Origin: Lachnospiraceae bacterium
GTDB taxonomy: Bacteria > Bacillota > Clostridia > Lachnospirales > Lachnospiraceae
Reading direction: 5' to 3'
Length of the DNA stretch: 38,566 nt
Assembly (NCBI GenBank): GCA_017521195.1
Contig: JAFXGP010000081.1
Span: 1-38,566, forward strand
The translations under genes were made by a program, and so were the position numbers. The notes under the pieces are model-generated. The model was not told the DNA's origin. It saw only the letters and a list, made by a program, of their open reading frames with translations, and did no database searches. This document shows, piece after piece, positions 11,697 through 38,566 of the stretch. Each line of letters starts with the position of its first letter. Position 1 is the first letter of the stretch.

Positions 11697-12557
11697 ATGA
11701 AAAAAATAGATATGCATCTTCATCTGACCTTACGTCAGATTCCTAAAATTGGGAAAATGAATCTTACCAGTGGAAAAAATATGCTTCCGCATTTGGAAGA
11801 ACTGGGGATAGGGAAGGGCGTTCTTATGTCCAGCGGAGAAAAGAAAGTTCCTTTCGGCAATAACAAAGGAAATAAAGCTATCTGTGAAAAATTCCCTGAA
11901 AATTATGCATGGATGTGTAGCTTTGATGCAGTAAATCCTGAAACAGTATATGAGAGAATGTCATTATACAAATCTCAAGGAGCTATCGGAATAGGAGAGT
12001 TAACTATTAATAAACCTCTTACAGATCCAATGTTACAGGCGATTTTTGCAGCTGCAGAAAAACTGGATATGCCGGTAACTATTCACATGAGTCCCGAAGT
12101 AGGTTATAGTTATGGTGTAGTAGATGAACCGGGGCTTCCTATGTTAGAGAGTGTATTACAGAAATATCCTAAATTAAAAGTATTAGGACACAGCCAGACT
12201 TTCTGGATTGAAATGAGCGGTGATGCACCGACAGAAAAGGAAAAACGTAACAGTTGGGGAGAAGGTCCTATCGTCCCCGGTGGACGAGTACCGGAATTGT
12301 TTGCAAAATATCCAAACCTGTATGGGGATTTAAGTGCCAATAGCGGCGGAAATGCTATTATGCGTGATCCCAAGTTTGGTTTGAAGTTTTTAGAAGATTA
12401 TGCAGACAGATTATTCTTTGCAACTGATATGGTAAACAAAGATATGGTATTTCCTCTGGGAGCATGGTTGGATAAACAGGTTGAATCCGGTGCTTTAAGT
12501 CGGGAAACTTATGAAAAAATCTGTTGGAAAAATGCACAGAGAGTATTTGGATTATAA
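11697..12557 (+). CDS. Amidohydrolase family protein (amidohydrolase 2 / TIM-barrel metal-dependent hydrolase)
   Basis: A 286-residue cytosolic TIM-barrel hydrolase. The metal site is seen as DMHLHL at residues 4-9, a His in MPVTIHMSPE, a His in VLGHSQTFW and the catalytic Asp in LFFATDMVNK. This is the amidohydrolase-2 pattern, which includes lactonases, decarboxylases and amidohydrolases acting on small organic acids. The substrate cannot be assigned. It is the second gene of the operon, between a GPH symporter and a carboxylesterase, so it probably acts on the imported compound or on the product of the esterase. A ribosome site AAAGGA lies about 13 nt upstream of the ATG. Confidence 0.85.
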   Translation: MKKIDMHLHLTLRQIPKIGKMNLTSGKNMLPHLEELGIGKGVLMSSGEKKVPFGNNKGNKAICEKFPENYAWMCSFDAVNPETVYERMSLYKSQGAIGIGELTINKPLTDPMLQAIFAAAEKLDMPVTIHMSPEVGYSYGVVDEPGLPMLESVLQKYPKLKVLGHSQTFWIEMSGDAPTEKEKRNSWGEGPIVPGGRVPELFAKYPNLYGDLSANSGGNAIMRDPKFGLKFLEDYADRLFFATDMVNKDMVFPLGAWLDKQVESGALSRETYEKICWKNAQRVFGL

Positions 12558-12617
12558 GTCGCAAGATTTATTCTGAATAGTTACTATAATTCGAAAAAGA
12601 AAGAGGGAACGAAATTT

Positions 12618-13994
12618 ATGCCAAATACAATTAAAACAAAATGCGGAGAAATCCGTGGAACTACATGCCAGTGGGATGGTGTTGTTGCGTATAAAGGAAT
12701 CCGTTATGCTACAGCAGGAAGATGGGAATATCCTCAAATCGTGACTCACTGGGATGGTGTATATGAAGCTGATAAATATGGTAACTGCAGCTATCAGCCA
12801 AGAGCTTTTTACAACGAAGAAGAAGTGGTAGAAAAGGCATTTTATTATAATGAATTCCGTAAAGGTGAAACTTATACTTATGATGATGATTGTCTATTCT
12901 TAAATATCTGGGTACCTGAAACAGCTACTCCTGAAAGCAAACTTCCTGTTATTTTCTATATCCATGGTGGCGGATATACCGGTGGATGTGGACATGAAAA
13001 ACACTTTGACGGACCGGTTTGGCCAACCAAAGGTGTAATTGCCGTAACCTGTAATTATCGTTTAGGACCTATGGGTTATTTATGTCTTCAGGAATTGGAA
13101 AAAGAAGCAGGACATACCGGCAATTATGGAATGTTCGACCAGATTACTGCATTACAGTGGGTTAAAAATAACATCGAAGCTTTCGGTGGAAACCCTGAAA
13201 ATATTACTCTTATGGGACAGAGTGCCGGAGCTATGAGTACCTTAAATATTTGTATTAGCCCTTTGACTGACGGACTGTTTGCAAAAGCTGTGATGAACAG
13301 TGGTGGTGGTGTTCATAAATTAATGGACAGTAAAGCAACTGTAAATGATAGATTTGAATTCTGGCAGATGGTAATGGATGACCTTGGCATCGAAACCGTA
13401 AAAGAATTACGAGAATTAGAAGTAAGTAAATTATTTGCTTCCTGGCAGAAAATCAAGAAGACAAGTCCTAAATACGGTATGATTGCATCTCCATGTATTG
13501 ACGGAATTGCTTTGACGGAATCAGGACTTGCCATTGCAGGAAAAGGCGGACAAAAAAATATTCCTTACATGATGGGTTCTACCAGTCAGGATATTGTGCC
13601 TCCAATTGTACACGGAATGGCAAAAAACTGGTGTATTATGCAGGATGAACAGAAAAAACAGCCAAGCTATTGCTGGTTCTTCGACCGTAAATTACCGGGA
13701 GATGAACATGGAGCATGGCATTCCAGTGAATTATGGTATTTCTTCGGTACTTTGAAAAATGGTTGGAGACCATTCACAGAACATGATTATAAAATCAGTG
13801 AAGCTATGGTAAATGCTCTTTGCAATTTTGCCAAAACGGGTAATCCAAATGATGAAGGGAAAAACGAATGGAAACCTACAACTTCTAATCAGAAACAACT
13901 TATGTTATGGGGAGAAAATATGCCTCATATGGGTAAACCAAGCCAGTTGAAATTATGGTATACTATGTTTACCAATAAGGCAGTTGGGGAGTAA
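12618..13994 (+). CDS. Carboxylesterase/lipase family protein (type B)
   Basis: A 458-residue alpha/beta-hydrolase of the type-B carboxylesterase family. The oxyanion-hole motif FYIHGGGYTGG and the nucleophile elbow GQSAGAMS (Ser202) are clear, as is NYRLGPMGYL. The likely catalytic His is in HGAWHSSELWYFFG. The acid residue is less certain, perhaps in MGSTSQD. No signal peptide is seen, so it is intracellular and hydrolyses an ester after uptake. Third and last gene of the AraC-controlled operon, 60 bp after the amidohydrolase, with GAGGGAA as ribosome site, and followed by a strong terminator. Confidence 0.88.
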   Translation: MPNTIKTKCGEIRGTTCQWDGVVAYKGIRYATAGRWEYPQIVTHWDGVYEADKYGNCSYQPRAFYNEEEVVEKAFYYNEFRKGETYTYDDDCLFLNIWVPETATPESKLPVIFYIHGGGYTGGCGHEKHFDGPVWPTKGVIAVTCNYRLGPMGYLCLQELEKEAGHTGNYGMFDQITALQWVKNNIEAFGGNPENITLMGQSAGAMSTLNICISPLTDGLFAKAVMNSGGGVHKLMDSKATVNDRFEFWQMVMDDLGIETVKELRELEVSKLFASWQKIKKTSPKYGMIASPCIDGIALTESGLAIAGKGGQKNIPYMMGSTSQDIVPPIVHGMAKNWCIMQDEQKKQPSYCWFFDRKLPGDEHGAWHSSELWYFFGTLKNGWRPFTEHDYKISEAMVNALCNFAKTGNPNDEGKNEWKPTTSNQKQLMLWGENMPHMGKPSQLKLWYTMFTNKAVGE

Positions 13995-18315: not shown

Positions 18316-18336
18316 AGAACAAGGGAGTTGGTGAAT

Positions 18337-18603
18337 ATGTTAGCAGTAAATTATACAAATCTTCGTGATAATATGAAAGCATATATGGATAAGGTGACTG
18401 ATGATTATGAGACCATGATTGTTACCAGAAAAGATAATAAAAATGTTGTGATGATTTCAGAAGAAGCATACAACAATCTTATGGAAAATGTTCATGTTAT
18501 GGGCAACAAATCCAATTATGATTGGTTAATGGAATCTAAGGCACAGCTTGAAAGAGGGAATGTAGTAACGCATGATTTGATTGTGGCAAATGCGGATGAA
18601 TAA
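18337..18603 (+). CDS. Type II antitoxin, Phd/YefM family
   Basis: An 88-residue antitoxin with the Phd/YefM N-terminal DNA-binding fold: MLAVNYTNLRDNMKAYMDKV, then TMIVTRKDNKNVVMISEEAYNNLMENVH, shown here in part. The C-terminal MESKAQLERGNVVTHDLIVA is the toxin-neutralising tail. The ATG at 18337 is chosen because AAGGGAG (18321-18327) precedes it by 9 nt; an in-frame TTG exists at 18328. The gene overlaps the toxin start by 8 nt (ATGAATAA), which couples translation. It represses its own promoter by family analogy, using the inverted repeat just upstream. Confidence 0.9.
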   Translation: MLAVNYTNLRDNMKAYMDKVTDDYETMIVTRKDNKNVVMISEEAYNNLMENVHVMGNKSNYDWLMESKAQLERGNVVTHDLIVANADE

Positions 18604-18859
18604 AGTGTTTACTGAGAATGGATGGAAAGATTATCTTTATTGGCAGACGGAAGATAAAAAGACTCTTAAAAAGATAAACAGTCTTATAGAAGACATTTGT
18701 AGAAATGGGAATGTAGGAATCGGTAAACCGGAACCGTTAACAGGGAATTTGTCAGGATTTTGGAGTCGTCGTATTAACGACAAGGACAGATTAATTTATA
18801 AGATTGATGAAGTTAATGTTTATATTTTAGCTTGTCGATATCATTATGGAGATACATAG
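18596..18859 (+). CDS. yoeB: Type II toxin YoeB (mRNA interferase)
   Basis: An 87-residue RelE-fold toxin of the YoeB group. Catalytic residues fall at the same positions as in E. coli YoeB: Glu46 in KPEPL, Arg65 in DRLIYK, His83 and Tyr84 in CRYHY. Conserved WKDYLYWQ and GFWSRRI are also present. YoeB binds the ribosome and cuts mRNA in the A site. It starts within the last codons of the antitoxin gene. All key residues are intact, so the toxin is probably active. Confidence 0.93.
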   Translation: MNKVFTENGWKDYLYWQTEDKKTLKKINSLIEDICRNGNVGIGKPEPLTGNLSGFWSRRINDKDRLIYKIDEVNVYILACRYHYGDT

Positions 18860-36964: not shown

Positions 36965-38545
36965 ATGGCACAACCATACAATCACAAAGAGTTGGAAGTG
37001 AAATGGCAGAAAGTTTGGGACGATGAAAAAGCTTTCGAAACTTCCAATGATTATTCCAAACCAAAATTTTATGCATTGGTAGAATTCCCATATCCATCAG
37101 GACAGGGACTTCATGTAGGTCATCCAAGACCATATACAGCATTAGATATCGTAGCGCGAAAAAGAAGAATGCAGGGATACAACGTATTATATCCAATGGG
37201 ATGGGATGCGTTCGGTCTTCCTACAGAAAACTATGCGATTAAAAATCATATCCATCCAAAGATTGTTACTAAAAATAATGTAGAAAGATTTAAAAACCAG
37301 CTTCATTCTTTAGGATATTCTTTTGACTGGGATAGAGAAGTTAATACCACAGATCCAAACTACTACAAATGGACACAGTGGATTTTCTTAAAATTATTCA
37401 ATGCCGGACTTGCATACAAATCTGAAATGCCAATCAACTGGTGTACAGAATGTAAAGTTGGTCTTGCCAACGAAGAAGTTGTTAATGGTGTTTGTGAACG
37501 TTGCGGTGCAGAAGTTGTTCGTAAAGTTAAGAGTCAGTGGATGTTAAAAATCACAGAATATGCTGACAAATTAATTCAGGACTTAGATGATGTTGATTAC
37601 ATTGAGAGAGTAAAAGTTTCCCAGAAAAACTGGATTGGTAAATCTCAAGGTGCAGAAGTTGACTTTGCAATCGCAGGAAAAGAAGATAAATTACGTGTAT
37701 ACACTACAAGACCGGATACATTATTCGGTGCAACCTACATGGTAGTATCTCCGGAACATCCAATCATTGAAAAATATAAAGATGAATTAAAAAATTATGA
37801 TGCATTAGTTGAATACAGAGAAATGGCATCCCGTAAATCTGATTTTGAACGTACAGAACTTGCCAAAGACAAGACCGGTGTTATGATTGACGGTTTATGT
37901 GCAATCAATCCTGTAAACGGCAAAGAAATTCCAATCTGGATTTCTGACTATGTATTAATGACTTATGGTACAGGTGCTATTATGGCAGTTCCGGCTCATG
38001 ATGAAAGAGACTGGGATTTCGCTAAGAAATTTAACATGCCTATTATTGAAGTAGTAGCAGGCAGTGATGTAAGTGTACAGGAAGCTGTTTATACAGATGT
38101 TGCTACAGGTACACTTGTAAACTCAGACTTTTTAAACGGTCTTTCTGTAGCAGAAGCTAAGGAAAAAATCATTGCTTTCTTAGAAGAAAAAGGAATCGGA
38201 ACTGCAAAAACCAACTTCAAACTTCGTGACTGGGTATTCTCCAGACAGCGTTATTGGGGAGAACCTATTCCGATTGTAAAATGTGAAAAATGCGGTTATG
38301 TCGCCCTTGATGAAAAAGAATTACCATTAGAACTTCCTGAAGTTGACAGCTATATGCCAACTGACAACGGAGAATCTCCATTAGCAGCTATGACAGATTG
38401 GGTAAAAACAACTTGTCCATGTTGTGGAGGTCCTGCGGAAAGAGAAACAGATACCATGCCTCAGTGGGCCGGTTCTTCTTGGTATTTCTTAAGATATACC
38501 GATCCAACAAATGAAGAAGCATTAGCAAGCAAAGAAGCATTATAA
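36965..38545 (+). CDS. leuS: Leucyl-tRNA synthetase, N-terminal 526 residues, ended by an in-frame TAA
   Basis: Class I synthetase that charges tRNA(Leu). The HIGH-type motif [17 protein letters not shown] (residues about 41-57) is intact, as is the editing domain ([35 protein letters not shown]), and [19 protein letters not shown] and [13 protein letters not shown] are conserved. The family normally runs to about 800 residues and continues YW(L/M)PVDWY after this point, carrying the KMSKS loop. Here a TAA at 38543-38545 comes directly before YWLPVDW in the same frame. The rest of the gene is beyond the window. Either a real nonsense mutation or a base error. AGAAAGAAGGA precedes the ATG. Confidence 0.9.
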
Positions 38546-38566
38546 TACTGGTTGCCTGTTGACTGG

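Follow-up and report, generated by a model that had tools for sequence, protein, structure and literature searches.

A TAA codon within the frame of leuS at the end of a Lachnospiraceae draft contig, probably a wrong or non-representative base

Results

A leuS gene cut by the contig end

The window, by which we mean the whole 38,566-nucleotide stretch analyzed here, is contig C76 of a Lachnospiraceae bacterium draft genome that totals 2,536,438 bases over 133 contigs, with a completeness of 81.71% and a contamination of 4.72%; to judge by its completeness and fragmentation, it is probably a metagenome-assembled genome. Its last gene on the forward strand is the 5′ part of leuS, which runs from an ATG at 36965 through 526 sense codons to a TAA and then continues in the unchanged frame for seven codons (TAC TGG TTG CCT GTT GAC TGG) to the last base of the contig (Table 1). 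The original prediction had described this same arrangement, an in-frame TAA after residue 526 followed by YWLPVDW, and the window sequence bears it out. In a profile search, the 526-residue product matches TIGR00396 (leuS_bact) at 729.9 bits over profile positions 1–515 of 843, a score that exceeds the curated cut-off of 548.4 bits with the N-terminal part of the protein alone, and it contains matches to the editing domain PF13603 and the class I core PF00133. This part of the gene covers the start, the editing domain, WYFLRYTDP and EAL; the remainder of LeuS, with KMSKS and the anticodon-binding and C-terminal domains, falls past the contig end and outside the window sequence.

Table 1. Coordinates of the leuS features in the window
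Feature	Position	Strand	Evidence
leuS 5′ part (leucine--tRNA ligase), 526 codons	36965..38542	+	TIGR00396, PF13603, PF00133; 97% identity to G004
In-frame TAA of leuS; sense codons in relatives	38543..38545	+	Codon comparison, pattern search
YWLPVDW, final seven codons of the contig, the normal LeuS continuation	38546..38566	+	Frame, motif in relatives

Elsewhere in the window, at 18328–18859, two small overlapping genes form what we take, from their translations, to be a YefM/YoeB-type toxin–antitoxin candidate.

Relatives carry a sense codon and an open frame

We compared the site with 86 relatives, comprising 6 loci of the genus and 80 of 581 confirmed loci. The motif YW.[PS][VI][DN]WYNGG, presumably a conserved part of the LeuS catalytic region, is present in all 86, which argues that the leuS frame 3′ of the TAA is genuine. 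None of the 86 has a stop at the codon matching 38543–38545; they read GAA (24), AAA (14), GAC (10), GAT (10), AAT (8), GAG (8), AAC (5) and AAG (3), with CGG, GCG, CAG and CAA seen once each. The two closest relatives, G004 and G005, both have GAA, and 39 of the 86 have GAA, AAA or CAA, so that a single substitution suffices to produce the TAA, as had been proposed from the window alone.

A pattern search across 397 genomes of the family gave the same picture, with no instance of TAA, TAG, TGA or TGG preceding YW-x-PVDWYNGG. The control pattern, GAN or AAN before the same motif, was found in 101 of the 397, making the effective denominator about 101; the other genomes lack a match to the exact pattern, and the 397 include the window's own genome, whose contig ends too early to hold it complete. 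From the motif onward, the frame stays open for at least 250 codons in 80 of the 86 loci, and four others reach a contig end without a stop. The remaining two are L053, with unknown bases, and L049, with a lone TAG farther on.

Within the genus, all six other genomes encode LeuS, five of them as one open frame of 809–827 amino acids and the sixth, G005, cut by contig edges. The 526-residue part in the window is 97% identical to that of G004 and 86–97% identical across G001–G004 and G006. In G005 itself, leuS lies on two contigs, C118 and C25 (loci L012 and L013), whose ends both cover residues 227–300 at 98% and 96% identity to the 526-residue query, as if the assembly had broken on strain variants.

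TAA is the usual terminator in the window

Among 31 other genes of the window, TAA is the stop of 24, TAG of 6 and TGA of 1, a count that depends on our choice of genes by hand from 52 open reading frames, with overlapping and antisense frames omitted. When 32 window genes were compared with the DNA of relatives, 16 were matched and 16 were unmatched, and three of the matches (23–47% identity) were dropped as not orthologous. Twelve of the 13 orthologous genes end within two residues of the G004 endpoint, eight of them with TAA, and leuS is the only one to stop early, by 277 codons. Reassignment of TAA, one of the options raised in the original prediction, is contradicted by these stops of the window's genes, and we rejected it.

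A suppressor tRNA had also been suggested as something to look for. Scoring 150 of 152 candidates in the incomplete assembly yielded 32 tRNA genes with ordinary anticodons and no TTA, CTA or TCA among them; the list is itself incomplete, and Met, Ile, Ala and His tRNAs are missing from it. The genome carries two RF-1-family genes. A separate instance of an open frame after a TAA occurs at 11697–13994, where one gene stops with TAA at 12557 and the following one begins at 12618 in the same frame, with 478 open codons past the TAA; these are probably just neighboring genes, which we take to be metal-dependent hydrolase-like and carboxylesterase-like.

The TAA lies in the final 24 bases of the contig

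The extracted leuS locus of the window (L001, length 3102) has 1500 bases 5′ of the match and just 24 on the 3′ side, whereas locus L007 has 1500 on each side. Those final 24 bases, which contain the TAA, differ from G004 at two positions, one inside the TAA and one a synonymous TTG/TTA change, and are otherwise undamaged, a point against an error at the edge. A chimeric tail was considered and rejected, as the last 24 bases keep the LeuS frame with only these two differences. We likewise rejected a repeat or an overlapping contig at the edge: the final 167 bases have a single copy in the assembly, their 19 other matches are 14–33 bases long with E values of at least 0.368, and no other contig of the assembly continues or overlaps them.

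On a contig of 38,566 bases, a stop placed at random would lie 24 bases or less from one of the two ends with a chance of about 0.12% (48/38566), a figure calculated after the fact. As a control, we examined 40 of the 133 contig starts for reading frames broken near an edge; a reference match lay near the edge in 7 and was absent in 33. The left edge of the window itself had no reference match. At three of the seven, the reference frame itself terminates before the edge, and at the four testable loci (L171, L175, L177 and L178) the frame runs unbroken up to the edge, in L171 apparently only because the gene starts there with its own start codon. The control lends edge errors no support, and four testable edges are too few to argue for or against them.

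Searches for a second leuS and a detached C-terminal half

The original prediction had raised the possibilities of another leuS copy and of a split enzyme. With the 526-residue query, no second leuS was found in the approximately 82%-complete assembly, other matches reaching at most 50% identity; the 277-residue C-terminal part of G004 LeuS gave weak matches only, at 40% identity or less, in an assembly missing about 18% of the genome. We took the weak matches to both queries to be other class I synthetases, judging by similarity and the length of their open frames. Neither option thus gained a candidate gene from this assembly, within the limits of its completeness. Nor did the six other genomes of the genus, themselves 72–89% complete, contain a second high-identity leuS.

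Discussion

We consider it probable that the window holds an ordinary leuS truncated by the end of the contig, and that the TAA is a wrong or non-representative base. Most probably, the base would be either a single-base mistake in the consensus at the contig end or a minor-strain variant. Of the options set out in the original prediction, a wrong base fares best, given that the stop falls within 24 bases of the edge of a draft contig. As read depth falls away toward such an edge, the consensus may depend on very few reads or even one, and a single read error or the base of a minor strain is then not outvoted. We infer that thin coverage, combined with a read error or a mixture of strains, could have acted in this way at 38543.

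A comparable base is found in the draft genome of Lachnospiraceae bacterium isolate SUG327, where leuS (L049) has a single in-frame TAG at 1707–1709 of 5647 and an open frame to either side of it. This lone TAG indicates that nonsense bases do turn up singly in draft consensus sequences of this kind, and its position away from the contig edge indicates that they are not confined to edges. Taken together with the contig-start control, in which no broken edges were seen, it keeps a real nonsense allele live as an explanation, though a less likely one.

Such an allele would be a truncated leuS in the strain or in a sub-population, lethal or decaying and perhaps covered by a second LeuS that was not assembled. 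The assembly does read TAA, and at 81.7% completeness it could lack a further leuS copy. However, leuS is normally essential, no second copy is present in the assembly, the comparison with G004 shows no shortening in the 12 other genes, and the site lies at a contig edge. The remaining protein would, moreover, be without KMSKS and the anticodon-binding domain, both of which the G004 protein has. On balance, we regard a real nonsense mutation as unlikely.

A variant with a much lower probability is that a second leuS on a missing contig has left this copy free to decay. The completeness estimate leaves room for it, with about 18% of the genome missing, but five of the six other genomes of the genus show one uninterrupted leuS and G005 one edge-cut leuS, and the 526 residues, at their level of identity to G004, show no drift. 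We therefore think this very improbable.

Slightly less probable again is a split enzyme or a translated stop, whether as a two-subunit LeuS, reinitiation at the TTG at 38552, read-through or a reassigned TAA. A split LeuS does exist in Aquifex aeolicus (PMC4975002), and the in-frame TTG lies 6 bases past the TAA. Against this stand the use of TAA as the terminator of most of the window's other genes, eight of them at G004 endpoints, the incomplete set of tRNA genes found, none of which has a suppressor anticodon, the two RF-1-family genes and the single frame maintained across the site in relatives; by inspection of the sequence, there is also no obvious ribosome-binding site 5′ of the TTG. 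A split, recoded or read-through LeuS has no support here, and its narrower form, a real stop with LeuS made in two pieces, for example by TTG reinitiation, or read through, is the least probable of all, with a split point unlike that of Aquifex.

We return, then, to an ordinary leuS with one wrong or non-representative base, a reading that carries a caution for the annotation of draft genomes: a lone nonsense codon within one read length of a draft contig end should not be taken as a sign of recoding or of a split gene. A genuine stop would imply that an essential synthetase is produced in an unusual way, but nothing here points there.

Three known systems place the gene in context. PDB chains named 'subunit alpha' are, we presume, Aquifex LeuS. 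The alpha/beta LeuS of Aquifex aeolicus resembles the window in that the LeuS frame here also ends ahead of the C-terminal part, and differs in that no second gene was found in the incomplete assembly and the genus shows no sign of a split. The split points differ as well: in Aquifex, it lies at the tRNA-binding domain, according to PMC4975002, whereas the stop in the window lies just 5′ of a conserved catalytic-region motif. The leuS of L049 resembles it in having one nonsense codon inside an otherwise open gene of an uncultured Lachnospiraceae, although at another codon position and away from a contig edge. The third system is bacterial LeuS as modeled by TIGR00396, which the 526 residues follow from profile position 1 to 515 and from which the window gene departs by a TAA 24 bases from the contig edge, with the KMSKS, anticodon-binding and C-terminal domains of the family lying past that edge.
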